DNA of 32,810 nt from an uncultured Oscillospiraceae bacterium (GTDB lineage: Bacteria; Bacillota; Clostridia; Oscillospirales; Oscillospiraceae): contig CANQVL010000031.1 in NCBI GenBank assembly GCA_947627285.1, forward strand, positions 1 through 32,810, read 5' to 3'. Below the pieces are notes generated by a model. It was not told the origin of the DNA, did not search any database, and was given only the letters and a program-made list of their open reading frames with translations. Below are positions 1 through 22,354 of the stretch, piece by piece; position 1 is the stretch's first letter; every line of letters begins with the position of its first letter. The position numbers and the translations under genes are program-made.

Positions 1-3000
1 CCTTCCACGTTCAGGACGACGCCGTCCTCGCTTATCACGCAGTCGCGGACGACCTCCTCGGTCCCGTCGGGGTGGACTACCACCGCCACCGTGCCGGGTC
101 CGACGTGGGTGACGGGCACCTCCATTTTGACGGATCCTTCACCCTGGACGTGGACGTTTACCTCCGGGGCCTCCTTCGTTGACCCCGCGGAGGGCACCTC
201 AACAGGGGCCTTTACTACCCCTTCTGACCCCCCTTGGGGCACCGTTACCTCCGCATTGGTAACGTTTCCAGAGGCATCTTTACCGGTGGTTCCCACCACT
301 CCTTCGGGGGTAGTGGTGGTCTCGACAGATGTCCCGTCGGGCTTCGTCGTGGTGGTCGTGGTGGAGCCGTCGGGGTTGGTGACGGTCTCGGTTTTGGATT
401 CGTCGGGGGCGCCGGTCCCGCCGGAGCCGGGATTCGAGGGGGCGGGGGGCGCCACGTAATCAGCGACGGTCACAGCTGCGGAATCGCCGGCAAAGCTGCT
501 CTCCGTGGCCTTCAAACGGACCTCGTACTCCCCGGCGGCAAGGCCGTCGATGGACTCTCTGCCTGCCTCCACGGTGGTCCACTCGCCGCCGTCCGTCCTG
601 TACTCGTAAAGCTTCCCGCTGTCAAGGCCCGTGACGGACCCGTCGGTCCCGGCGGAAGAGGTGGGCGCCTTTCCCTGAAGCTCCGGCGCGGCGGGACGAG
701 CGGGGACGTTAACAGACTGGGGCGGGCTGTCGATGACGGCGGGTCCGCTGCCCTTCAACACGATGTTGATTGGCTTGCCAAACCATTCCGTCCTGATTGC
801 GACCGCGCTGTCCTCGCCCACCGTGACGGCTTCATCATTCACGGTGTAGCTCCCCTCGCCAAAGCCGGTGAGCTTCTCGTTTTCATAGTCGATCGTCACG
901 TTCGGCGTTGCCGCGTAAGCGGGGTCCTGAACGGTGATCTCTGTCTCCTCGCTGTAGAACGCCTCGTTCGTGGCGGAAAGGCGCACCTGATAGCTGCCGG
1001 CGGCAAGCTCGGTCTCGCCAGTGAGGGGTTCCCAGCGGCTGCCGGCTTTGTACTCATAGGTCACGCCGTCGGTGAGGCCCGTAACCCTTCCATCGGCATC
1101 CCCCGGCTTGGAGGTGTAGCCGCCGGTAAGTCCGGCGGGCGCGGCGGGACGGGCGGGGACAGCCAGCTCCAGGGCGTCGCTGTCATTGGTCTTGACGCCA
1201 TCGCCCTTCTTGACAATAGAGATCCGCGCGCCGATCCAGGTCTCATCAATGCGGATCTTACCGTCTCCGTCGGCTTTCACGGGGGCTTCGTTGATTTTGT
1301 AATCGCCATTTGGTTCAAGCCCGGTGAGCTGTTCGGCCTTATAGTAGATGGACGCCTCCGGCTGGCGCTCCGCGGTGGGGTCGTATTTGTTGACGGTCAC
1401 CGTGACAGGAGTGCCGGCGTTCTGGTTTTCGTTGGCCTTGAAGCGCACATCGTAGCCGCCTGCCGCCAAACCGGTGATCTCCGTGCCTTCCACGGTCTGC
1501 CAGTCATCTTCGCCGCCGGTCTGCTTCTTCCACTCCATAGAGGTGTCCACGCCGGTGATGTAACCGTCGTTACCGGGAATGGTCTGCTCGTTATGCGCCG
1601 TGACGCCGGCAGGCGCGGCCTGCTCGCCCTTTTGGACGGCGACGGTGACCATGGCGGTGGTCTGTGCGATCTCCTTGTAGTTCTGCTTCGTCTTCTCGCT
1701 CGCCGTGAAGGTCACCTCGTAGGACGTGACGTCCACGGTGGGCTTGATACTGCCGTCTGTCCACGCGAAATCGCCGTACTCGTTGGACGTGAAGGAAAGC
1801 TCTACGCTCTCCAGCTTCCCGTCGGGGTCGTAGGTGATGGGGCCGCTCACCGTCGGGAAGACTATCTCCGGCGCGTCGGCCTGGGTGATGCTCCACTCCT
1901 GGGTGAGGTTAGTCGGCATCTCATAGTTGCCGATCTTATCGCCGGTGATCTCCGCTTTGGCCTCATAATTTCCGACGTCCGTATGTTTATCATCGGAGAG
2001 GCTAACGGTAAGCTCATCTTCGCCCTGCTGTCCCTCAAGTACAGCGCTGACAGAATGCTCGCTGCCGTTGTAGGTAAACGTTGTCTGCCCGTCCCATGTG
2101 AGGGTCAGCGGCGCCTGGGTGATCTCCCAGGAGAGATCCTTGTTGTCCCCGATGGTGTAGTTCTTTGACGCTGTGCCGTCAAGACCGGTGACAGTGGCGG
2201 TGTAGGTCTGCGCATCGGTTCCGGTGTCGCCGGACAGGGTGACGGTAACATTGTCATCGCCCACCTTATTTGTCACCTTCGCCGTGACCGTGTGCGCCTG
2301 CCCGTCGTAGGGGAAGGTGCTCTCGCCGTCAAGCTCAAACTCGGCAACAAGTGGCTTGATTGTCAGAGTACCGAGAGAACGGACCAGCTTATAATCATCC
2401 GTGCCGCCTTCAACGACCTCGCGCACACGGTACTCGCCCACGTTTTTGGGCGCAGCGGACGTCCACGCGTTGTCGACATAGTATTCCACGCTTTTCCCGT
2501 CCGCGCTGTCCCACGGGATATTCTGTCCGTTGTAGTCATTCTCCCGGGAATCGCCGGTCCCTTCGAGCTCAATGATCAGCTTGCCGTTTTCATAATAGCA
2601 CCTGTAGGTTTTTCCGGTTTCCAGCTGATAGCCGTTGATGTTGGCGGTGAAGGTGATGTCCTGCGTAGTGCCGCTCATAAAGCTGGCAGTCATCATCTCT
2701 TGTGTCGTAACCGAAACAGCACCGCTCGCCGTTACGGTGGCGGGGCTGGTTTCCGTCGCGTTCCTGTCAATCGCGATCTTGCCGCCGAACGCGCCCAACG
2801 CGGTCAGTGTCGAACCGCCCTTCATGATTAATACCGCGTCAGCGCGGTCAGAGGGATACCGTGTACCCGAAATCGTGGCGTCTTGGAACGTGTTATCGTA
2901 GAAAACGATCAAATTATCTGTATTGGAGGCAGATGCCGTTTTCTCGGGAACGGTCAGAGACGCCCCATTTTCCAGTGTCACAGTCGCTCCGGGCATAAAC

Positions 3001-4610
3001 TTGATGCGCTCATTGAAAGTCCAATTTCCGCTGAATGAGAAATCCATGTCTCCATCAAAAGGATAGATATAGTCTCTTGTTGAAAGCGCACCTGCTGCAG
3101 GAACAGTTATGGAGCTGGAGTAAAGCCCGCCGTCACCGTCAAATACGAGCTTTTCTCGTCCATCAATATATGTTTTCGACACAGACCCGCTCGTGAACCG
3201 GAACAGACCGTTGCTGTTGTCTACCTGCGGAAAACGCGTGCGCTGATATCCTCCGTCGGCAAACATTTTCACCGTTCCGGAAAGCGTGCTGTCATGCTGA
3301 AGAAGAATTTGTACCTCAATGTTGTGCATTTTGAACTCGTTCATGGGGTAAACATGTCCCGCCATAACAGCGCCCGATGCCGCCGAACCGCCGCGCCAAT
3401 TGATGACCACATACAAATCGTAGACCTTGCCGCCGGACGCAACGTCAATGGAGCCGCTGCCCCTGACATAGCCGTTCACATCCAGTAGCCCGCCCTCATT
3501 AACTTCGATCCTGCCGTTCAGTTGAACCTCTCCGTAGCCGCCGTTGACGTCCTGGTCATAATGGCCCGCAATGTTGCGTCCGGTTACGGCGTTGACAAGC
3601 ATTGTACCGCTCACCGAAACGACAGCGTCCTCGGGAACGGTGAGGGTGCAATAAAGTGTTCCGTTGGGCCCCGTAGTACCTTTTGCAGTCGTTCCGTCAG
3701 GAGAAAACCCGTTGGTATACCCGGCATCATTCTCCATACAGGGAATGAGGAACGTAATACCCGTTGGAACGGTAAATCCGTTTTCCGCTGTCCAGTCCAC
3801 AAGGAGCGATACGGTTTTGGCATCCCCAGCCTGCGCCGCCTCGATAGCTGAACCGTAGTCATAATAGAATTGACCGCCCACATCAAATACAGGCTCATTT
3901 GTTCCAATAAATTTAGCTTCGACCGTAGTGTCTTTGTCAAACTTCAGGGTAGTGCTGAGCTCACGGCTAAACAATTTGCCGTCAACGATCCAGCCAAAGA
4001 AACGGTATCCGTCAGACGGCTCTGCTTCAACAGAATACCCCTCTGCCGCCGTTTTATCGCTGAACACTTTTGTCGCGTCGAGCGGCACTTTGTCCACAGT
4101 AACGGTTCCATTCATTGGCTGGGTAAATGTAATGTTCGCTTTTGCGTCCAAAGCAATCAAGGAAATATTGGTGATGCTGATTGATGTTTCCCCGTCTGTG
4201 TAACTGCCTCCTTTGGCATTCAATTTAATGATGGCAGAACCGCTTGCAGCCAATTCTTTTTCAAAGGTGCCTTCGCCTGTTTTTGTCGCACCGTCGATTG
4301 TGACTGATTGTGAATTCGATGTAATACTATATTGAAAGGAAAGATGTACTTTTCCCTCACTGTTGTTTGTAAGTGTTAACGTGGAAGTTCCGGTTTTACC
4401 ACAACTCGCCGTCATCACACCGTTGATTTCAGTACCTTGTGCAGTCCATGTGCCGTTGCCATCGTCACTAAGACCAATGCGGTTATCATCTAAACTGCCG
4501 GAGACAGCGGCAAAGGATGTAATGACAGTACCGGGTAAAATGCTTATTATGAGCGCTAATGTTAAAGAAAAGACAAGCGCCCTTTTGAGAACGCTTTTAA
4601 TCAAATTCAT
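1..4610 (-). CDS. Large secreted repeat surface protein, 3' end outside window
   Basis: The frame is open from an ATG at 4610 to the window edge (1,536 codons), so the C-terminus is missing. Residues 1-35 form a signal peptide (basic start, hydrophobic core, SFAA). An InlB-like repeat (GYSVEAEP...FFGWIVDG) lies near residues 183-212. A region of strand-rich, glycine- and asparagine-containing motifs follows. Two MBG/YDG-type domains (FPYDGQAHTVTA, FTYNGSEHSVSA) lie near 750-910, and three repeats of the type LAAGxYxVRLxAT begin near 997, 1148 and 1302. From about 1385 a Thr-rich stalk (PDGSTTTTTTKPDG) begins. In clostridial S-layer proteins such a stalk normally leads into SLH domains, which would lie off the left edge; that is inference. 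The ATG overlaps the stop of the upstream Lgt-like gene (ATGA). GGAGG sits only 2 nt from this ATG but 7 nt from a TTG at codon 3, so the start could be TTG at 4604. Likely a cell-surface adhesin or S-layer component; ligand unknown. Confidence 0.88.
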   Translation of the reverse strand, partial: MNLIKSVLKRALVFSLTLALIISILPGTVITSFAAVSGSLDDNRIGLSDDGNGTWTAQGTEINGVMTASCGKTGTSTLTLTNNSEGKVHLSFQYSITSNSQSVTIDGATKTGEGTFEKELAASGSAIIKLNAKGGSYTDGETSISITNISLIALDAKANITFTQPMNGTVTVDKVPLDATKVFSDKTAAEGYSVEAEPSDGYRFFGWIVDGKLFSRELSTTLKFDKDTTVEAKFIGTNEPVFDVGGQFYYDYGSAIEAAQAGDAKTVSLLVDWTAENGFTVPTGITFLIPCMENDAGYTNGFSPDGTTAKGTTGPNGTLYCTLTVPEDAVVSVSGTMLVNAVTGRNIAGHYDQDVNGGYGEVQLNGRIEVNEGGLLDVNGYVRGSGSIDVASGGKVYDLYVVINWRGGSAASGAVMAGHVYPMNEFKMHNIEVQILLQHDSTLSGTVKMFADGGYQRTRFPQVDNSNGLFRFTSGSVSKTYIDGREKLVFDGDGGLYSSSITVPAAGALSTRDYIYPFDGDMDFSFSGNWTFNERIKFMPGATVTLENGASLTVPEKTASASNTDNLIVFYDNTFQDATISGTRYPSDRADAVLIMKGGSTLTALGAFGGKIAIDRNATETSPATVTASGAVSVTTQEMMTASFMSGTTQDITFTANINGYQLETGKTYRCYYENGKLIIELEGTGDSRENDYNGQNIPWDSADGKSVEYYVDNAWTSAAPKNVGEYRVREVVEGGTDDYKLVRSLGTLTIKPLVAEFELDGESTFPYDGQAHTVTAKVTNKVGDDNVTVTLSGDTGTDAQTYTATVTGLDGTASKNYTIGDNKDLSWEITQAPLTLTWDGQTTFTYNGSEHSVSAVLEGQQGEDELTVSLSDDKHTDVGNYEAKAEITGDKIGNYEMPTNLTQEWSITQADAPEIVFPTVSGPITYDPDGKLESVELSFTSNEYGDFAWTDGSIKPTVDVTSYEVTFTASEKTKQNYKEIAQTTAMVTVAVQKGEQAAPAGVTAHNEQTIPGNDGYITGVDTSMEWKKQTGGEDDWQTVEGTEITGLAAGGYDVRFKANENQNAGTPVTVTVNKYDPTAERQPEASIYYKAEQLTGLEPNGDYKINEAPVKADGDGKIRIDETWIGARISIVKKGDGVKTNDSDALELAVPARPAAPAGLTGGYTSKPGDADGRVTGLTDGVTYEYKAGSRWEPLTGETELAAGSYQVRLSATNEAFYSEETEITVQDPAYAATPNVTIDYENEKLTGFGEGSYTVNDEAVTVGEDSAVAIRTEWFGKPINIVLKGSGPAVIDSPPQSVNVPARPAAPELQGKAPTSSAGTDGSVTGLDSGKLYEYRTDGGEWTTVEAGRESIDGLAAGEYEVRLKATESSFAGDSAAVTVADYVAPPAPSNPGSGGTGAPDESKTETVTNPDGSTTTTTTKPDGTSVETTTTPEGVVGTTGKDASGNVTNAEVTVPQGGSEGVVKAPVEVPSAGSTKEAPEVNVHVQGEGSVKMEVPVTHVGPGTVAVVVHPDGTEEVVRDCVISEDGVVLNVE

Positions 4611-5400: not shown

Positions 5401-7491
5401 TTAGCCTCCAAAGGGAATATGAAGGATCACAACGATGGTCTCAGTGGCGTTGAAGCCCATGGACGCCTGAAGGTCGATGGTCACCGTCACGGGGACAGCG
5501 TAATAGCCGCTTCCCACTTCTTCTTTGGTAAGAGCATAGCTTCCTATATTAGTATTGCCTATAGTGTTTTTTCCGCTACCGAACATTGCGGTGACACCGG
5601 CAAAAAACTTCTGCCATTCGGACTGACCAGTTGGGTTGAACTCTTTGGAGGTCAACTCAATTCCGCCGACTTTGATGGAGGTCATTTTGCTGAGGACCTT
5701 ATTGATAAGGGCGCTATTGCTGTTGATGGTTCCGAGTAAAGACTTGATGTTGGGAGCGTCGTCCTCTCCGAAGATAGAGCTGTTATCAGCGGAGCCAAGC
5801 ACATTGAGAGCGGCACCAACGGTCACTTTTTCAAATGCGTCTTTATCGTTCTTGTGCTCCTTAAGCGCGTTCAGCAGGCTCGGCGGCATTTCCACGCCGA
5901 TAACGATGTACTTATCCTCACCGGTAACATTTTCAAGGATATCGCCAGTGCCATAGGTTTCCTTAATCTCATCCACAGTCATCTGCTTCATGGAGAGGTA
6001 TGTGGCAAGCTTACCGGCAAGAGCCTGGACTTTCTCAACATCATCGCCCTTGAGCTGGATGGTGAGGGAGACAGGTTTGGTATCGGTTGCACTGCCGTCG
6101 GGTGCCGTGACTGTGCCTTCAAGCTCCTTGTATGTATAGACATCGTTGTCATCCGGAGTCATCTCGCTCAGCTTGACAAAGAAGCCGTTGGCAACGTCAA
6201 CAAGGGCCGCCTTGAGGTTGGTGTTATTAAACTGCTTTTCCGCATAAACCTCGAGCTCTTCTTCGCCAACCTTGATTTTGAGAGTGGCTTCGCCGAATTT
6301 TTCGTCGAGGGCTTTTTTAACTTCGGTCATCAGACCTTCAAGTTTCTCACTGCCAACAGCCTCTTCGCTGGCGGAGATCTTATCGGCGTCAAGGGTCAGG
6401 GTGTAAGTGCCGTTGCTGCCATCGGCAATGATAAGATCTTGCAGACCCAGGTCTGTAAGGATGCCCTTGAGAGCAGTCCAGGTATCATCCGCCGCTTCCT
6501 CTGCCTTGTTGGTATCAACAACAACAGGAGGATTGTAGGGAGGCGCCGGTTCGGGGACAACTACGTCCTTGTCGGGGTCGGCGCTGACGTCGATGCCGTT
6601 TGCGGTGACGTTCTCGGCGGTCTCGGAGGCGGTGATCTCGGTGCCCACGGGGGCGCCGGATATGGCGACGTCGCTGACGGTCACGTTGACGGTGGGAGTG
6701 CCGGTGACGCCCTTCATGTCAACTGTGCCGGCCTCGCCGGAGACTACGATGGGCATATCGTTGGCGTCGCCAGTCACGGTCACGTTATCGGCGACCACGA
6801 GGGTGATCTTGCCGTCCTCGCCGATCTCAACGGTGTCGCCGGTCTCGTTGGCGTAGCCGCCGATGAGGTTGTCAAGCAGGAGCGCGGCGCCCTCGCGGGT
6901 CATAAGGCCCAGGGGGTTGACCTCGTTGTTGCTGCCCTTCACGGCGCCCATCTTGTGGAGCGCTTTTATGTAGGGGGCGGCATAGTCGGCGGCGTCGCCG
7001 ATGTCGTCAAAGTCCTCGGCGTCCTCCTCAACGGGATTCACGCCAAGGGTCTTGGCGATGGTGACGAACATCTGCTCGCGGGTGAGCTCGCCGTGAGGAG
7101 CGAGAGACAGGCTGACAGTCTCGCCGTTCTCGTCAAGGGTGGGAATTCCCGTGACGATGCCGGCTGCCACGACCTTGGCTGCAGCGGCTCTCTCCCACTC
7201 GACGGTGGGAATGTCGTCAAACGCGGAGAGGTCATCCTCCTTGACCAGGTTCAGGAGGTTGGCGATGATGGCAAAGCCCTCTATTCTGGACATTTTGCCC
7301 TGGGGGTTGAAGGCGTCATTGCCGTCGCCGGTGATGACGCCCTCATCGGCCCATCTTTCGATGGCGTCGGCGTAGCTTGCGTTGGTGGCTTCATCAATAT
7401 CCGTGAATTCAGCCGCCAGCGCCGCGACAGGTACAAGAGCCAGCACCATGCACAGGCTCAGTACGAGCGCAAGGATCCCTTTCTTCTTCAT
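5401..7491 (-). CDS. S-layer-like surface protein with three N-terminal SLH domains
   Basis: A 696-residue secreted protein. Signal peptide: residues 1-26 (MKKKGILALVL...AALA). Three SLH domains follow at about 29-82 (FTDIDEATNASYADAIERWA), 86-150 and 156-214. SLH domains anchor proteins non-covalently to secondary cell-wall polymers. A short Val/Thr-rich region at about 220-310 (VTVTGDANDMPIVVSG) leads to a Pro-rich linker (PEPAPPYNPP). The 370-residue C-terminal part is not recognised; it alternates strands with amphipathic helices, has no cysteine and ends in TIVVILHIPFGG. The start has GAGGTG 5 nt upstream. A near-consensus promoter and a structured leader of about 135 nt precede it, typical of an abundant surface protein. 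Very probably an S-layer or S-layer-associated protein. Confidence 0.9.
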   Translation of the reverse strand: MKKKGILALVLSLCMVLALVPVAALAAEFTDIDEATNASYADAIERWADEGVITGDGNDAFNPQGKMSRIEGFAIIANLLNLVKEDDLSAFDDIPTVEWERAAAAKVVAAGIVTGIPTLDENGETVSLSLAPHGELTREQMFVTIAKTLGVNPVEEDAEDFDDIGDAADYAAPYIKALHKMGAVKGSNNEVNPLGLMTREGAALLLDNLIGGYANETGDTVEIGEDGKITLVVADNVTVTGDANDMPIVVSGEAGTVDMKGVTGTPTVNVTVSDVAISGAPVGTEITASETAENVTANGIDVSADPDKDVVVPEPAPPYNPPVVVDTNKAEEAADDTWTALKGILTDLGLQDLIIADGSNGTYTLTLDADKISASEEAVGSEKLEGLMTEVKKALDEKFGEATLKIKVGEEELEVYAEKQFNNTNLKAALVDVANGFFVKLSEMTPDDNDVYTYKELEGTVTAPDGSATDTKPVSLTIQLKGDDVEKVQALAGKLATYLSMKQMTVDEIKETYGTGDILENVTGEDKYIVIGVEMPPSLLNALKEHKNDKDAFEKVTVGAALNVLGSADNSSIFGEDDAPNIKSLLGTINSNSALINKVLSKMTSIKVGGIELTSKEFNPTGQSEWQKFFAGVTAMFGSGKNTIGNTNIGSYALTKEEVGSGYYAVPVTVTIDLQASMGFNATETIVVILHIPFGG

Positions 7492-7774: not shown

Positions 7775-10700
7775 TTACTTTGTCAACTGGTCGTAGAGTG
7801 AGAGGATGGTTGCGAGCTGGGCCCTGTTGGAGGTGTCGGCGGGGTTGAATTTGTTGTTGTCGCCCTTAATGACCTCCTTCATGGAGCACCATGCCACGGC
7901 CTCGAACGCCCAGTCGGAGATGTCGGCAGCGTCGTCGAAGGGCAGATTGAACATCCAGTCGCCGGTGAAGCCGCCGGCGCCAAGCTTCTGCTCGTAGTTG
8001 TAGAGCATTGTCGCCATCTGCTCGCGGTTGATGGTGTCATTGGGTCCGAAATCGCCGGTGTCGTAGCCCTTGATTATGCCCTCGCTCGCCGCCCAGCGGA
8101 TCGCCTCGGTGTACCACTCGTTTTCGGGGACGTCGGGGAAGGGGATCTCATAGTCCACCTCGGGGCTGCCGTAAAGCGTCCAGAGGATGCCCGCCATCTG
8201 AGCGCGGGTGACGACCCTTTCGGGCTCAAATCCCAGGTCGGTGCCCTTCATGAGGTTGTTGGCTATGGCGTAGTCGGTGTAGGGGTGATACCACTGGGTG
8301 AGGTCGATGTCGGGGAACGCCAGGGACGGGCACTCGTAAACCGCCGCGGTCACGGTGACGTTGGAGGAGGGCATTTTGAAGGTGTAGGTGCCGTCCTTGT
8401 TGTCCGTGACCTCAACGTCCTTGCCGCCGGCGGCGGTGACGGTCACGGCGGAGACGTGGTAGTTCTCGGCGGGGGCCGGGGTGACGGTGACGGTCTCGCC
8501 GGCGGGGACGCTGGAGGCGGAGACCTTGAGCTCCACGTTCTCAGCCGCCTCGGTCTTCACGGAGTAGGTGTAGGGTCCGGCGTAGTAGACGGTATATTTG
8601 ATCTCACCTTCCACACTCTCGTCCTTGGTCACGGCATAATAGCCGGAGCCCTTGATGTCGGCGTTAAAACTGTGATTGCCCTTTTTCAGGGTAAATTCGA
8701 CTGTGCGGCTGACGGTCACGTCTTCGTTGCAATCCTTGTTGAGCTCGATCACATCGCCGTCCTTCGCGGCGTCAACGGCGTCTTTGAGGGTGTTGTAATA
8801 CTTGTCTTTGATCTTCGCCTCGGCGTCAGTGGTGGTGCGGAGCTCGAAGGTGGAGAAGCCGTCTGGGTTCTCGAATTTCACAACGCCGCTCTCTACCTTA
8901 CCGGTGTACCAGTGGACCGCGTTGTCTTCCTTGGTGTGCTTGATGTACACGGTGGCGCCTTCCACGGCAAAATTGGCGGGAACGGGCAGGACCATATCAA
9001 CGGTTCTGGAGACGGTGAGGGGGATCGGATCGGTGAGGTCAACGGAGTTGTTTTCAGTTACCTTCTGGATATCCGGCTCTGTGGAGGCGACAACGACTAT
9101 GACAGGGGAAATATTAAGCCTCAGAACGTTGCCGTCAGCACCCGGAGTGGTTGCACTGTATTCCTCTACTTCGATATTGACCGTGGTCAGAACGTGGAGG
9201 TAGACATCTTCACCTTCTTCTACCTCAACATCCTTCTCTTCCTTCAGCTTTTGCTTAGCGTTATCCGCCGTGCAAACGGTGTCGTCCTCGGTGACGGCGT
9301 TGCCCACGTCCTTAAGGCTTTCTGAGGCAAAGGACACGTCGGTGTTTTGGAGATCCTCTTCCTTTACTCCTTGTGTGTCTTCGCCAAATTTAAGAGTTGG
9401 CTCCTCGACGATTGTGATTCCGTCGCCCTCCTGTGTTTCCGCCGCGAAGCTTACGTTGACGGTGACATCGGCGGCGGGCATGGTGAAGGTATGTTTACCG
9501 TCCCCACCATTTGTAACTTTGATATCCTCAGTCCCGCCCACGGCGACGACGCCGATAAGCTTGTAGCCTTCGTCTATTTCCTTAACGGTAACTGTAATCG
9601 TATCGCCGCGGATAGCCGTTTTATTGTCAATTTCAGCCTTGCCGCCAGCGCCGGCGGTCAGGGTGACGGTGTAGATTCTGTAGACGGTCTTGCCGCCGTC
9701 TTTATCAACGGACTTGTACCCATCGGGAACGGTTACGGTGCTGCCTTCAATGACAAGCTCCACGCCGTCATCCCCGGCGGTGTACTTTGTGCTGCCGACG
9801 GTGAGGGCGCTATCCACAGTGGGCAGCTTGGCGGTGACTTCGCCCTCCACGGTTATGGAATCGCCGTCGCCATAGGTCAGGGTGGCGTCCGTCTCGGATT
9901 TGTTGGAAAATACAGCGCCGCTCACGGGGTCGGTGTAATCGTCCCCGGCTTTGACGGTGACCGTGGTGATCTCTACGGGCGCTTTGCCGTAGGCGGTGAC
10001 GTTGCTGGAGCCGTCGGTGACATTCTCATTCACCGTAAGCGCAAGCGTTAAATCAGTGTTTTCACTGTACTTGGTGGCGGTGGCGGTGTTGCCCTCTGTC
10101 TTGCAAACAAAGTTACCCTTGCCCACGCCGGAGAATGTTACCGTACCGAGAACGATTCGGTTGCCGGTGAGAGCCCTGTCCTTGGGAAGGTTGTCGGCGG
10201 GTTTGAAGGTGTAAACGCCGTCAGCCTCGGTCATACTCACATTATCGGCGGAAGTGATCTTGAAATTGAGGTGCGGCGCATTTTCAATTTCAAAGGACAG
10301 CTTAGCCTCCTTGAAGGAGTAGATGGACTTGTCTTCATCGGCGCTTTCCAGAATGATTTGGTACTCGTTGGCGTTTTGCATATGGATGTTTTTGATGAAG
10401 ATGATACGGGCATTCGTGGCAAAGGATTCTGCCGTTGAGTCTCCAATAGCCGTCACATAGCAGGCGTCGCCGCTCCCTGTGCCTTCACGCTTGGTAACGT
10501 GGGTATTGGGCACAAATCTGGATACGTTGGAGCTGAAGTGACCGCCGGTGATGGTGACCATACTGTCTTCCTTGGCGTCCACTGCCTCCGCATGGCGACC
10601 GTCAGAAGCCGGCGGGACCTCGGTGTTGGCGTTGAGTAGAATGTGCGTGCTCTCTCCTTCGATTTTGAGGTTTCCTTTTTCGACATACACGCCGTTAAAA

Positions 10701-12433
10701 CCGGCGGTGATCGTAGTATTCTTGATAGTAGCGTTTCCGCCGCGAATATATACGCCGATGCCGCCGTCGCACTCCTCCACGGGGTTGCCCAGATAATCTA
10801 CGCCGTCCGGCGCGGGAGCAAGGTTGACAAGGTTAGTTACCGAACCGCCGTTGATGGTCAGGTCGTTGTCGCTGTAAATCAAGGCATAGCGGGAAATGCT
10901 CGTAGCGGGTCCGCCAGGGACATTAGCTGAAACGTCAATGCCTCTAACCGTAACGTTATTGAGCGTCAAGGTGCCGTGATTGTCCACGGCGTACTCCTCT
11001 GCTTTATTGTAAACGGGGGCAGATTGAAGTGTGCTACCGCTGGTTTTGCCTTCCATGGTAAGCGTTGCTCCTTCATCAACGGTAATCGTGGCAAACTTTC
11101 CGGTGACCCCACCCTTCAGGGTTCGTCCGTTGAGGTCAATTGTAATTTCTTTTCCCGTGGGAACTGCCACATTCTCCTTATGATCATTAAATTCACCCTT
11201 ATCATAGTTAAGGATTATTTTCGTCGCACCCTGCTGGATGGCCTGATTGATGCTGGAATACGTATTTCCGCTATCATCCTCGATATACGCCGTTTCAACC
11301 TTCCAGCAATTCTGTTCAGTATAATCGGATTCTGTCTCCACCAGCGTAAATTTTCCTTTAATATGCTCTCGGAAATCAGTAGTAAAAATTCCGGAGTGAT
11401 TAGTATTTTCAAACTCTATTGAGCCATTTTCGCCGAATGTAATAGCACCTATAATTCCGGTTTTAGTCTCATTACCAATATATTTTAAGGTGCCATTAAC
11501 CTGAATATCACCATAATAAATCAGAGTATTCCCCGGAGACTGGCTAACTGATGTCAGGAGTCTGAGAGTTAGCGTTATTCCCTCTGGAATCTCATCTTTA
11601 GCTGACGGATGCTCCGCACTGCCGAAATCAGCAAACATATATAGCGAAGTTTTGCCAGCTTCAATGGCTTCAGAAATTGTACGGTAGAAGTTGGCTCCAT
11701 TTATATTGTCAGTAAATACGGGCGGAGTTCCCAGCTTGACCGTCAGAACACGGTTACCATCTTCATCAATTGCCACGTCCGCATAATATCCATCCGGGAG
11801 CTCCGCAACACTGCCTCTATCAGACCCCGTATATTTAAATGGATTCATGCCGCTGGTTGTAGAAATGACTTTAACATTCTCAGAGAAATAACACTTAGAT
11901 CCAAGGATTGGGTATTGATTCTTCCCTTTGTATGTACCGGAGTTTACCCTAATGTGCCAGGTTCCTGCATCTCTAACCGCATATCCGCTGGCTCCGCCTC
12001 CATCAACTTCCAAGTCCTCCAACGTCAGTTCGTGAGGATTTTTGGTATTTCTTCCTTCAGTCCTAATGACGGAAAGATAGCTACTTTTGCTTGTTATCTT
12101 GCCGTTTTTAATTGTGACTTTAACGGATTCTGTTGTTCCACCCTTGACCATAAGAAGTCCATTGTTAGAGCCTCTCGCTATATTGCCATTGTCGGAAATC
12201 GTGAATTTTCCCAAATCTAGCGTCAAGCTTCTCTGAATAGTAATTGGGGCGTCCACTTCACTAATATCCCCCGTCAGCTTGATCGCGTCAACTGTGGTAT
12301 CTTCGATAGCCTCTTTTAGACTTGCGAGGTCCGCAACTTCGCGGGTCTCCCCATCCTCCGCGAACGCTGTGCCCGCGAGTAGAAGGACGGCTGCTAATAT
12401 TGCTGCGAGCAGAAATAAAGTATTGCGTTTCAT
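7775..12433 (-). CDS. Large surface protein with beta-helix-like repeats and three C-terminal SLH domains
   Basis: A 1,552-residue secreted protein. Signal peptide: about residues 1-25 (MKRNTLFLLAAILAAVLLLAG...AFA). The N-terminal part has pectate-lyase-like strand repeats (LTLEDLEVDGGG, LTINGGSVTNL, ATIKNTTITAGFNGVYVEKG) and units of the form YxTLKDAVDAAKDGDVIEL. Two InlB-like repeats follow (VTLTAGAGGKAEIDNKTAIRGD..., VSASSVPAGETVTVTPAPAENYHV), each ending in a TFxMPxxxVTV motif. Three SLH domains occupy about 1371-1552 (FPDIDLTQWYHPYTDYAI, FPDVPENEWYTEAIRWAA, FDDAADISDWAFEAVAW) and should anchor it to the wall polymer. AGGAGG lies 7 nt before the ATG. The 5' third is clearly more AT-rich than the 3' part. 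The upstream region lies inside a putative invertible segment next to a recombinase, so expression may be phase variable. Function is probably adhesion or surface coating; substrate unknown. Confidence 0.92.
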   Translation of the reverse strand: MKRNTLFLLAAILAAVLLLAGTAFAEDGETREVADLASLKEAIEDTTVDAIKLTGDISEVDAPITIQRSLTLDLGKFTISDNGNIARGSNNGLLMVKGGTTESVKVTIKNGKITSKSSYLSVIRTEGRNTKNPHELTLEDLEVDGGGASGYAVRDAGTWHIRVNSGTYKGKNQYPILGSKCYFSENVKVISTTSGMNPFKYTGSDRGSVAELPDGYYADVAIDEDGNRVLTVKLGTPPVFTDNINGANFYRTISEAIEAGKTSLYMFADFGSAEHPSAKDEIPEGITLTLRLLTSVSQSPGNTLIYYGDIQVNGTLKYIGNETKTGIIGAITFGENGSIEFENTNHSGIFTTDFREHIKGKFTLVETESDYTEQNCWKVETAYIEDDSGNTYSSINQAIQQGATKIILNYDKGEFNDHKENVAVPTGKEITIDLNGRTLKGGVTGKFATITVDEGATLTMEGKTSGSTLQSAPVYNKAEEYAVDNHGTLTLNNVTVRGIDVSANVPGGPATSISRYALIYSDNDLTINGGSVTNLVNLAPAPDGVDYLGNPVEECDGGIGVYIRGGNATIKNTTITAGFNGVYVEKGNLKIEGESTHILLNANTEVPPASDGRHAEAVDAKEDSMVTITGGHFSSNVSRFVPNTHVTKREGTGSGDACYVTAIGDSTAESFATNARIIFIKNIHMQNANEYQIILESADEDKSIYSFKEAKLSFEIENAPHLNFKITSADNVSMTEADGVYTFKPADNLPKDRALTGNRIVLGTVTFSGVGKGNFVCKTEGNTATATKYSENTDLTLALTVNENVTDGSSNVTAYGKAPVEITTVTVKAGDDYTDPVSGAVFSNKSETDATLTYGDGDSITVEGEVTAKLPTVDSALTVGSTKYTAGDDGVELVIEGSTVTVPDGYKSVDKDGGKTVYRIYTVTLTAGAGGKAEIDNKTAIRGDTITVTVKEIDEGYKLIGVVAVGGTEDIKVTNGGDGKHTFTMPAADVTVNVSFAAETQEGDGITIVEEPTLKFGEDTQGVKEEDLQNTDVSFASESLKDVGNAVTEDDTVCTADNAKQKLKEEKDVEVEEGEDVYLHVLTTVNIEVEEYSATTPGADGNVLRLNISPVIVVVASTEPDIQKVTENNSVDLTDPIPLTVSRTVDMVLPVPANFAVEGATVYIKHTKEDNAVHWYTGKVESGVVKFENPDGFSTFELRTTTDAEAKIKDKYYNTLKDAVDAAKDGDVIELNKDCNEDVTVSRTVEFTLKKGNHSFNADIKGSGYYAVTKDESVEGEIKYTVYYAGPYTYSVKTEAAENVELKVSASSVPAGETVTVTPAPAENYHVSAVTVTAAGGKDVEVTDNKDGTYTFKMPSSNVTVTAAVYECPSLAFPDIDLTQWYHPYTDYAIANNLMKGTDLGFEPERVVTRAQMAGILWTLYGSPEVDYEIPFPDVPENEWYTEAIRWAASEGIIKGYDTGDFGPNDTINREQMATMLYNYEQKLGAGGFTGDWMFNLPFDDAADISDWAFEAVAWCSMKEVIKGDNNKFNPADTSNRAQLATILSLYDQLTK

Positions 12434-12475
12434 AGTGTTTCCTCCTCTTAAATTTTATTGAAATGGGTCGCCGGG

Positions 12476-12499
12476 ACAAAATTTCGCTTTTGTCCATAG
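12476..12499. repeat. Left inverted repeat of putative invertible segment
   Basis: A 24-bp sequence whose reverse complement is identical to 12712-12735. It lies 43 bp upstream of the start codon of the 12433-7775 surface gene. With two flanking bases, this copy is itself a dyad with 8-bp arms GGACAAAA/TTTTGTCC around a 6-nt spacer, which resembles the core site of a tyrosine recombinase. Confidence 0.9.
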
Positions 12500-12711
12500 G
12501 AGGTGAATGATTCTATGTACATAATATAGCGCAAAATACGATTAATTCTTATTATAGCATGACAAACGGGACCGACGGCGTTTTATGCCCTGCGGTCCTT
12601 GTTTCCGTGCAAATTTTTGTAATTATTTTTGTGCAAAGTCTTTACTTTTTCCGCTTGCTGTGATAATATCTTTGTGTATATCGTTTTGGGGACCCGTATT
12701 TGCCCTGTGTA
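12500..12711. promoter_or_regulatory. Putative invertible promoter segment (212 bp)
   Basis: AT-rich DNA between two perfect 24-bp inverted repeats, next to a tyrosine recombinase gene and upstream of a surface-protein gene. It carries promoter-like signals on both strands and an imperfect hairpin at 12569-12598 (GGACCG pairing with CGGTCC). No gene is visible inside it. By analogy with described phase-variable switches (established knowledge), inversion would turn the surface gene on or off. Inversion itself is inferred, not seen. Confidence 0.75.
12551..12558 (-). promoter_or_regulatory. Extended -10 promoter facing the surface gene
   Basis: On the minus strand TGCTATAAT gives a perfect TATAAT (12551-12556) with a TG extension; no good -35 is seen at 17 bp. 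It points to the surface gene start at 12433, with a leader of about 110 nt that includes the left inverted repeat. If it is the main promoter, the orientation shown here is the ON state. Confidence 0.6.
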
Positions 12712-12735
12712 CTATGGACAAAAGCGAAATTTTGT
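12712..12735. repeat. Right inverted repeat of putative invertible segment
   Basis: The 24-bp partner of 12476-12499. It ends one base from the recombinase stop codon (12737-12739), so inversion would leave the recombinase coding sequence intact. The outer two bases of the dyad differ from the left copy (TTTTGTAC against TTTTGTCC). Confidence 0.9.
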
Positions 12736-12736
12736 A

Positions 12737-13552
12737 CTAAGACACTAACCCCAATTTGTCCAGCGCCCTTCGGTGCTCGGCGCCGGTGGTTATGAGGTAG
12801 ATTCGCGTCGTATCTACGCTGCTGTGGCCCAGAACGTCCGCAAGCTTTACTATGTCGCGGGTGACGCGGTAAAAGGTCCTGGCGAACAGGTGCCGCAGGT
12901 TGTGGGGGAAGATCTTTGTCGCCTCCACGCCTGTTTTTTTGGACAGCGCCTTCATCTCCGCCCAGATCTGGCCCCGGCTCAGGGGCTTGCCGCTTCCGGT
13001 GAGGAATATCTCGCCGGAGGCGGTTTTCTTCTTTTTGGCGTATTTCAAAAGCTTCCGGCAGAGCTTGCCGGGGAGGAGTACGGTCCTGAGCTTGCCCTTC
13101 AGCCTTATGCGCGCCTCCCCCGCCCTTGCCGCCTCGACGGTTATGAAGCGCAGCTCGCTGACGCGTATGCCCGTGGAGCAGACTGTCTCCATTATGAGCC
13201 TCAGGCGCTCCGGCGCGGCGGCAAGGAGGCGCTCGTACTCCTCGCGGGTCAGCTCCCTGGACTGCTCCCTGAAGGCGCTTCGCTGGACGCGAATTGCCCT
13301 TACGCGCAGGTCGGGGCGGCGGAGGTATTCAAAATAGGCGTTCACCGCCGCGACCATGGCGTTCACCGTGGCGGCGGCGTAGCCCCGGCGCAGAAGGCCG
13401 TCGCGCCACTCCGCCGCCGCCTCGCGGGTCAGCTCCCCGCCGCCCAGATCCGTCAAAAATCTCGTGACCGCGCGAAGGTACTGCTCCCGCGTCCCCCGCG
13501 AGCGCTCCTTCTCCCGCAGCGCTGTTTCAAAACCGGCAAGGTCCTTTTCCAT
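12737..13552 (-). CDS. Tyrosine recombinase (XerC/D-like), probable DNA invertase
   Basis: A 271-residue site-specific recombinase. The N-terminal core-binding (SAM-like) domain spans about 5-85 and the catalytic domain about 100-271. The catalytic set is complete: Arg130 (CSTGIRVSEL), Lys152 or 154 (LKGKLR), His217-x-x-Arg220 (HNLRH), His243 (LGHSS) and nucleophile Tyr252 (TTRIYL). ATG 13552 is chosen because a terminator hairpin lies at 13575-13603; a TTG at 13642 would put that hairpin inside the gene. A TATAAT at 13571-13576 could be its -10. It lies directly beside a segment flanked by 24-bp inverted repeats, one of which abuts its stop codon, so it probably inverts that segment. No phage or transposon genes accompany it. 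XerC/D housekeeping duty is less likely given this context. Confidence 0.92.
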   Translation of the reverse strand: MEKDLAGFETALREKERSRGTREQYLRAVTRFLTDLGGGELTREAAAEWRDGLLRRGYAAATVNAMVAAVNAYFEYLRRPDLRVRAIRVQRSAFREQSRELTREEYERLLAAAPERLRLIMETVCSTGIRVSELRFITVEAARAGEARIRLKGKLRTVLLPGKLCRKLLKYAKKKKTASGEIFLTGSGKPLSRGQIWAEMKALSKKTGVEATKIFPHNLRHLFARTFYRVTRDIVKLADVLGHSSVDTTRIYLITTGAEHRRALDKLGLVS

Positions 13553-20417: not shown

Positions 20418-20999
20418 ATGGCACGACAGGGGTTAACTCACGCGGACATCATAAATGCCGCCATTGAGCTCATAGAATCTGAGGGACTGCACAGCTTCTC
20501 TCTGCGGGAGCTGGCGGGCAGGCTCCATATCAAGGCTTCGTCGCTCTATAACCACATTCGTAATATGGACGAGCTCTACACCGAGATCGGTTATTACGCC
20601 ATTTCAGAACTGAAAAAGGCACAGCTCCGCGCCATTGAGGGTAAGGAGCGGACGCAGGCAATAGAGGCGCTTGCTGACGCCTATTACCGCTTCGGCAAGG
20701 AGAGGCCGGAGATATACAAGGTCATACTTTCCCTGCCGATGGTGAAAAACGACGCGATACACAAGGCGGGGTTTGACATCATAGAGCCCATCATGACCGC
20801 GATGGACGGCTACCGGCTGACAGATTTGCAGAAAAGGCACCTGCAAAGGGTTTTTCGCAGTATCATGCACGGCTTTATATCCCAGGAGGAGGCGGGCTGT
20901 TTTCGGCAGTTCCCGGAGGATGCCGCCGAAAGCTGCCGAATGGCAGTCCGGGGATTTATTTTGCTCCTGGAGATTTCAGAAAAAGAGGCGCGGATATGA
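20418..20999 (+). CDS. TetR/AcrR-family transcriptional repressor
   Basis: A 193-residue regulator. Residues about 5-52 form the TetR helix-turn-helix (IINAAIELIESEGLHSFSLRELAGRLHIKASSLYNHI). The rest is a helical ligand-binding domain of the type that carries a GF(I/V)xxE-like motif (HGFISQEEAG). GGCGGTGA precedes the ATG. The stop overlaps the start of the MATE exporter gene (ATGA), so the pair is translationally coupled. With the palindromic operator over the promoter, it most likely represses itself and the exporter until a toxic compound binds. The inducer is unknown. Confidence 0.92.
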   Translation: MARQGLTHADIINAAIELIESEGLHSFSLRELAGRLHIKASSLYNHIRNMDELYTEIGYYAISELKKAQLRAIEGKERTQAIEALADAYYRFGKERPEIYKVILSLPMVKNDAIHKAGFDIIEPIMTAMDGYRLTDLQKRHLQRVFRSIMHGFISQEEAGCFRQFPEDAAESCRMAVRGFILLLEISEKEARI

Positions 21000-22354
21000 A
21001 AACCGACAAAACTGAGCTTTTTGAAAAGACGCCCGTCCCGCGGGCGGTCCTGTCCCTTGTGGTCCCCACCGTCATAAGTCAGATAATAACCGTCATCTAC
21101 AACATGGCGGACACGTTTTTTATCGGTCAGCTGAACGACCCGAACCAGGTCGCCGCCGCGTCCCTCTCCCTGCCGCTGTTCCTGCTGACCACGGGTCTTG
21201 CAAACCTCTTCGGTATAGGCGGCGCCAGCCTCATCTCCCGCAGTCTGGGGCTGGGAGATACGGAAAAGGTCAAAAGGACCTCCGCCTTTTGTATATGGAC
21301 CTCGGCAGCGGCGGCGCTTATGTACGGGCTCGCGATTTACGCCTTTCGCGGGGCGGTTTTGCCCGCCGTGGGAGCCGACGAGTATACATACGGCTTTTGT
21401 GAAAGCTACCTCTTCTGGACCCTCACCGTGGGCGCGGTGCCCACGGTCCTCAACGCCGCCCTCGCCCACCTTGTCCGGGCGGAGGGCTATTCCGGGCAGG
21501 CGAGCTTCGGCGTCGCCCTGGGCGGAGTGCTCAACATCCTGCTTGACCCGGTGTTCATCTTCGGCTTTCACCTGGAGATCGCGGGCGCTGCCGTCGCCAC
21601 CATGCTCTCCAATCTGACGGCGACGGCGTACTTTGTGGCGCTGATCCTCGGCAGACGCGGCAGGTTCCACCTTACGCTCGACCCGAGATACTACTCCGTC
21701 TCCGACGGCATACCCCGCGAGGTCCTGCTGGTGGGGCTCCCCAGCTCCATAATGAACCTGATGGGCATATTCTCCAACATCACCCTCAACAAGCTCTTGG
21801 TCAATTACTCCAACGCCGCCGTCGCGGGGATTGGCATCGCCAAGAAGATCGACATGCTCGCCTTTGCCATCGCCAACGGTCTTTCCCAGGGCGTCATACC
21901 CCTCATCGGCTACAACTATTCCGCCAAAAACACACGCCGTATGCGTGAGGTCGTCAAGGTGACGCTACTTTTGAGCCTCGCCGTCACGACTGCCGGCGCG
22001 GTACTTTTGTTCACCTGCGCCAATCCCCTGGTGCGCGCCTTCATTAACGACCCCGAGACGGTGCGCTACGGCAGTATGTTCCAGCGCATAATATGTATCA
22101 CGGGCCCCTTCACCGCCATCACCACGGTCATCATATCCATCTTCCAGTCCGTGGGGCAGAAGGGAAAGCCCCTCATTCTCTCCATGCTCCGAAAGGGCGG
22201 CCTTGACGTGCCGTTCATGTTTCTCCTCGACCGCGCCGGCGGCGCCGACGCCATCGCCTGGGCCACCCCCATTGCCGACTGCGGCGCCATGCTCGTGGGT
22301 ATCCTCCTGTTCATCCCCCTCTGGAGAAAAATGAGCAGAGACACGCGGGATTAA
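20996..22354 (+). CDS. MATE-family multidrug/sodium antiporter
   Basis: A 452-residue integral membrane protein with about 12 membrane spans in two halves. It begins with FEKTPVPRAVLSLVVPTVISQIITVIYNMADTFFIGQL, characteristic of the DinF/NorM-like MATE family. Typical second elements are VRAEGYSGQASFGVALGGVLNILLDPVFIF and ANGLSQGVIPLIGYNYSAKN. MATE proteins expel cationic drugs or metabolites in exchange for Na+ or H+. It is coupled to the preceding tetR gene, so it is probably an inducible efflux pump. Substrate cannot be told from the sequence. Confidence 0.93.
   Translation: MKTDKTELFEKTPVPRAVLSLVVPTVISQIITVIYNMADTFFIGQLNDPNQVAAASLSLPLFLLTTGLANLFGIGGASLISRSLGLGDTEKVKRTSAFCIWTSAAAALMYGLAIYAFRGAVLPAVGADEYTYGFCESYLFWTLTVGAVPTVLNAALAHLVRAEGYSGQASFGVALGGVLNILLDPVFIFGFHLEIAGAAVATMLSNLTATAYFVALILGRRGRFHLTLDPRYYSVSDGIPREVLLVGLPSSIMNLMGIFSNITLNKLLVNYSNAAVAGIGIAKKIDMLAFAIANGLSQGVIPLIGYNYSAKNTRRMREVVKVTLLLSLAVTTAGAVLLFTCANPLVRAFINDPETVRYGSMFQRIICITGPFTAITTVIISIFQSVGQKGKPLILSMLRKGGLDVPFMFLLDRAGGADAIAWATPIADCGAMLVGILLFIPLWRKMSRDTRD

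Follow-up and report, generated by a model that had tools for sequence, protein, structure and literature searches.

A probable invertible promoter with its own adjacent tyrosine recombinase ahead of an SLH surface-protein gene in an uncultured Oscillospiraceae bacterium

Switching by promoter inversion is a known mechanism. It is described for fim-like systems and, in gut bacteria, for the invertons that Jin et al. (2025) assign to group 139, with invertases of group 35; these invertons lie near tyrosine recombinases (PMC11892184). According to that article, 32 of the 33 members of group 139 are from the class Clostridia and one is from Intestinimonas; for the two members given there with coordinates, the repeats measure about 13 and 25 bp and lie about 228 and 206 bp apart, and shifts of orientation in reads are described for two members (PMC11892184). 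In Escherichia coli fim, as described, tyrosine recombinase genes lie upstream of an invertible promoter, which precedes an adhesin operon and in the OFF state is directed away from it (PMC11316696). The cwpV switch of Clostridioides difficile, whose RecV is a recombinase of the XerC/XerD family, also serves a clostridial surface protein, with 21-bp repeats lying 195 bp apart and 57 bp ahead of the start codon (PMC2784873).

The stretch of DNA analyzed here (the window) comprises 32,810 nucleotides from an uncultured Oscillospiraceae bacterium. It contains what is very probably an inverton, or invertible promoter, with a tyrosine recombinase of its own next to it. The position of the recombinase gene upstream of the switch and the direction of the predicted OFF promoter are as in fim; fim differs in that two recombinases are active, the repeats are 9 bp long and the element measures 314 bp, where the window has one recombinase and 24-bp arms. 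The kind of surface protein and the family of the recombinase recall cwpV. In contrast to what is predicted for the window, the cwpV promoter lies outside the switch (PMC2784873), and recV, which is unlinked to cwpV, acts on several switches (PMC2784873; PMC7446863). Group 139 is alike in the nearby tyrosine recombinase and in geometry (PMC11892184), and on comparison of geometry and description the family of the window likely corresponds to group 139 with group 35. The main text of Jin et al. (2025) has no occurrence of SLH, S-layer or Oscillospiraceae in a word search (PMC11892184). In the part of the inverton literature that we compared, neither the repertoire per genome nor the variant with an inactive recombinase paralogue, both considered below, was found.

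The perfect 24-bp inverted repeat reported in the preliminary description is present at 12476-12499 and 12712-12735, its arms 100% complementary and separated by 212 nt. By chance, a sequence as long as the window would be expected to hold about 1e-7 such perfect pairs within 500 bp, or 8e-7 when recomputed at 67% A+T. The segment between the arms (12500-12711, 212 bp), which is the predicted invertible unit and belongs to a family with homologous segments inverted at other loci, is AT-rich as described, with 38% G+C against 57% for the window and 64% for the recombinase gene. That the repeat has no further copy in the window holds more widely: the whole 2.81-Mb assembly searched (95 contigs, possibly incomplete) has just these two exact copies. 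One extra approximate arm site was detected in it by a 20-mer search with up to three mismatches; it lies on contig C29, next to a further recombinase copy. The right arm, a proposed recombination site, contains an internal dyad ACAAAA-6 bp-TTTTGT; we take both arms to be dif-like dyads around an asymmetric centre of 6 bp. This arm does lie next to the stop codon of the recombinase, with one base (12736) between them, and the left arm is separated by 42 nt from the ATG of the SLH gene (12433).

The controlled gene (7775-12433, minus strand) has an AGGAGG ribosome site at 12446-12441 and encodes a surface protein of 1552 amino acids. Pfam identified in it a pectate-lyase-like adhesive domain, InlB B-repeats and three C-terminal SLH domains, in agreement with the large SLH protein expected at this place; its N-terminus, judged by eye, resembles a signal peptide. 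A second SLH protein, also identified by Pfam, is encoded on the same strand at 5401-7491, and its gene is possibly co-transcribed with the first. The best homologue of the window SLH gene, in a congener (G410), is 45-51% identical and has a forward promoter TTGCAA-17-TATAAT, read by eye. No recombinase match occurs within the 9 kb examined at that locus, so it is unable to show a flipped copy. Elsewhere in the window, an open frame of 1536 amino acids without a Pfam match (3-4610) runs off the window end on the strand of the SLH genes, and genes for a TetR-type regulator and, after it, a protein of the MatE family occupy 20418-22354. PADLOC gave no match.

The tyrosine recombinase gene lies at 12737-13552 on the minus strand and is the probable invertase of the switch. 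It encodes 271 amino acids from ATG 13552, stop codon included in the coordinates; this is probably the start, following a ribosome site AAAGGAG read by eye, for which the alternative start TTG 13642 was set aside. The protein matches Phage_integrase (9e-25) and Phage_int_SAM_1 (6.5e-7) in Pfam. Numbered in the 301-aa frame from the TTG, its catalytic residues are Arg160, Lys182, Lys184, His247, Arg250, His273 and Tyr282, assigned by alignment with XerA and XerD together with known motifs. With an open frame, both domains and these aligned residues, the enzyme appears as complete as originally claimed. Each element of the set (Arg, Lys, His-x-x-Arg, His, Tyr) was found in all 89 aligned recombinases, seven of 96 sequences having been dropped beforehand. 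XerA, XerC and XerD, the recombinases of dif sites, are the nearest named protein families. However, the window type scores below each curated NCBIfam cut-off (XerA 136.8 of 220, XerC 96.1 of 335.15 and XerD 103.7 of 329.6 bits), has many copies per genome and has its sites beside adhesin genes.

PHROGs and Pfam both label this protein an integrase, as would be expected of the remnant of an integrative element in which the repeats arose by chance or from att sites and have no regulatory role. We consider such an origin extremely improbable, as the same genome has 16 recombinases in the same layout, each beside a repeat pair and followed, where tested, by surface-protein or prepilin genes, and no phage-type Pfam family was detected among 10 further frames of the window that were scanned.

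The window recombinase has 18 matches in its own genome, 16 of them at 45-100% identity and two at 27-30%. Each of the 16 has a repeat pair at its stop codon or no more than about 50 bp from it; on C2 and C33 the last part of the reading frame overlaps with the arm, and the weakest pair (C70) scores 12. The two distant recombinases have repeat scores of 7 and 8, which are control-like. Two types of repeat occur, ACAAAAT..ATTTTGT at 11 loci and ACATTAT..ATAATGT at five. Among the eight loci of the first type with a readable gene, an SLH protein comes first in seven, and on C29 a 531-aa protein without a Pfam match is followed by an SLH homologue; the other three loci of this type stop at a contig edge. 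At the second type, a prepilin N-methylation motif was present in all three first genes tested (C11, C37 and C40), and the first gene on C2 has the same N-terminus as that on C11. If each surface protein is governed by its own recombinase, one genome could display many combinations of adhesins and pilins, and a little-studied gut lineage is thereby tied to many surface proteins that could be switched one by one. Three contigs of this genome (C56, C70 and C27) end 248-494 bp past the recombinase stop, as happens where assemblers break at repeats or mixed orientations.

The same layout was traced across public relatives, represented by the best 80 of at least 480 confirmed loci. A repeat pair scoring at least 11 was found past the stop codon in 59 of the 74 relatives with enough DNA (six of the 80 were too short); the other 15 had none above the threshold, four of them with less than 400 bp to search. 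Counting loci of the own genome as well, 84 offered 600 bp for the search, and 71 of them had a pair reaching this score; in the same anchored search, none of 84 block-shuffled control stretches and two of 77 displaced ones did so. Two of the 75 counted pairs, at L077 and L082, are unlike the sites of other loci. An earlier count of an exact pair anywhere nearby (59 of 80 loci) was superseded by the search anchored at the stop codon. The nearest downstream open frame lies on the strand of the recombinase at 64 of the 71 loci with a readable same-strand gene, frames being chosen by length. Recombinase matches at E 1e-60 or better are present in 79 of 300 genomes drawn from Oscillospiraceae and in 43 of 106 genera, and a DNA search of 400 genomes of the family gave short matches in three besides the own genome. 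Similarity between recombinases is correlated with similarity between their sites over 55 loci, the rule that picked the sites having misplaced a few of these (Spearman 0.33, with 1 of 999 permutations as high). The family supplies many natural recombinase-site pairs with differing sites, which would be useful for studies of specificity.

Have these segments inverted? Among 115 pairs of homologous segments, 99 are in the same orientation and 16 in the opposite one. At L010 and L011, which are separate contigs of a single metagenome-assembled genome from rabbit gut and may be paralogues or strain variants, the segment is 96.7% identical only if flipped, while both flanks are 96.0% identical unflipped. 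In the window's own genome, the segments of C33 and C37 are 92.8% identical only when flipped, and their downstream flanks are 95.2% identical unflipped; the upstream flanks have diverged (53.4%), and orientation there was set by the recombinase gene. From these alignments we conclude that segments of the family have inverted. As the layout is conserved and both orientations occur, a family in which the segment is never inverted among relatives, the outcome named in advance as counting against a switch, is not what we see. The comparison of related assemblies for flipped segments, proposed in the preliminary description, thus showed both orientations for the family; in the sub-type of the window, all 10 homologues of its segment had the window's orientation.

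This uniformity, together with a promoter that is degraded relative to its siblings, is what a fossil switch would show, in which the recombinase formerly flipped the segment and the locus is now locked. We regard this as very unlikely, for the arms have remained perfect over 24 bp though the interior is only 63-71% identical to sibling segments, and the recombinase keeps an open frame and its catalytic residues. The preferred reading, a working inverton, implies that the window recombinase would act on the arms at 12476-12499 and 12712-12735 and that the segment 12500-12711 may still flip today.

The predicted promoter of the switch is TTTACT-17-TAATAT, with TGn before the -10 hexamer, at 12641-12669 on the plus strand; it points to the 3' end of the recombinase gene, which is OFF for the SLH gene. 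It aligns with TTTACA-17-TGATAAAAT, conserved in sibling segments (12 segments of the same type aligned), and departs from this consensus in both hexamers. By score the window segment was classed as ambiguous, with 7.5 for the OFF-facing against 7.0 for the ON-facing direction, its own score being weak. An extended -10 look-alike, TGCTATAAT, at 12551-12559 on the minus strand, is at present directed towards the SLH gene; it was found in the window segment alone, with no conservation across the 11 aligned siblings, and is probably incidental. Since the OFF-facing element is conserved and the ON-facing TGCTATAAT is the window's alone, the assembled state is read, with moderate confidence, as probably OFF for the SLH gene. 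A further weak site that points to the SLH gene, TTGTCC-16-TAAAAT (12479-12452), lies partly within the left arm; a transcript starting from it would begin within the ribosome site. A scan of 12400-12800 for consensus promoters gave one site against 1.0 expected by chance, and the comparison across siblings was used instead.

Over the family, 75 segments were scored on both strands with approximate weights, OFF meaning pointed at the recombinase. A one-sided promoter-like site was found in 60 (49 OFF and 11 ON) and 15 were ambiguous, while the same rule gave a one-sided site in 28 of 225 shuffled segments. A central hairpin, the proposed insulator or terminator, lies at 12557-12610, about 60% of the way along the segment from the recombinase side, with a minimum free energy of -22.0 against a mean of -12.6 in five shuffles. 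Over the 75 segments the best hairpin averaged -23.1 kcal/mol, against -15.6 in shuffles (five single-base shuffles each). The counts of T beside the central hairpins are alike on the two sides (4.0 and 3.8 of 12), and the hairpin, computed for one strand, would fold on either.

So strong a hairpin in mid-segment, a weak window promoter and a recombinase gene that reads towards the SLH gene are also compatible with a segment without a promoter, in which transcription arrives from outside by read-through from the recombinase and inversion makes or breaks a terminator. C. difficile cwpV, likewise serving a clostridial surface protein, is described as working in this way (PMC2784873). For the window we consider this unlikely: the excess of one-sided promoter-like sites in family segments over shuffled ones speaks against it, and so does the single base between arm and stop codon, where no separate promoter fits. 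Under the favoured promoter inversion, the recombinase would bind both arms and flip 12500-12711. The promoter in the segment, weak but at a conserved position and presumably active, would then face either the SLH adhesin gene, which is the ON state, or the 3' end of the recombinase gene, which is OFF; the central hairpin may keep transcription of recombinase and adhesin apart.

Relatives show a variant of what lies past the switch. Among 71 first genes past the switch, Pfam identified SLH in 14 and Phage_int_SAM_1 in 16, and at 17 of the 71 loci the first gene encodes a second recombinase-like protein, followed at most of them by a further same-strand open frame. One of these 17 proteins was short and was dropped from the alignment. 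In the 16 others, the column of His247 has Arg in 16 of 16, while His273 is not His and Tyr282 is not Tyr in 15 of 16 each; they keep conserved residues of their own, such as a P-R-x-L motif in 16 of 16. Examples directly after the distal repeat are L047 (1755-2624), L038 (5069-5932) and L026 (7332-8213), with 13 other loci. One paralogue modelled with AlphaFold2 (mean pLDDT 86.7, pTM 0.58) matched solved tyrosine recombinases throughout the matches listed, XerA best (E 8e-10), with lambda integrase and Cre also present and TM up to about 0.6. The modelled structure thus suggests that the fold was retained while the catalytic residues were lost. Such paralogues are present in congeners; the 15 matches in the own genome coincide with recombinases of the active type.

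We propose, from their residues, that these paralogues may be regulators of the switch that bind DNA and do not cut it, and from their position they would be transcribed from the switch promoter. A broader and tentative picture, which we think possible but doubtful, joins three elements: a repertoire resembling antigenic variation, an OFF promoter whose transcript runs antisense to the recombinase gene of the same switch, and, in relatives, an ON promoter driving the inactive paralogue ahead of the adhesin, the paralogue binding the arms and so holding or biasing the switch. Such feedback by the inactive paralogue, if true, would let a genetic switch adjust its own bias by simple and testable means. 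No inactive recombinase in inversion switches was recognised among the titles and abstract openings of the open-access articles listed.

In the own genome, the switch segments of L147 (C1) and L146 (C26) are 100% identical over 221 bp and the downstream flanks just 72%, which suggests recent exchange or duplication of switches. By eye, L141 (C56) and L144 (C27) have three repeat copies with a small extra segment, the third copy of L144 being cut by the contig end; this extra segment is inverted between the two loci and lies on differing sides of the main segment, as serial inversions among three sites would give. When 74 loci were each searched with their own site, four of them (L021, L056, L064 and L070) had at least three copies of it within 900 bp, just past the recombinase stop. 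Relatives of the recombinase on viral contigs, L091 (5001-5813 and beyond) and L090, also have a repeat pair past the stop codon, as read by eye.
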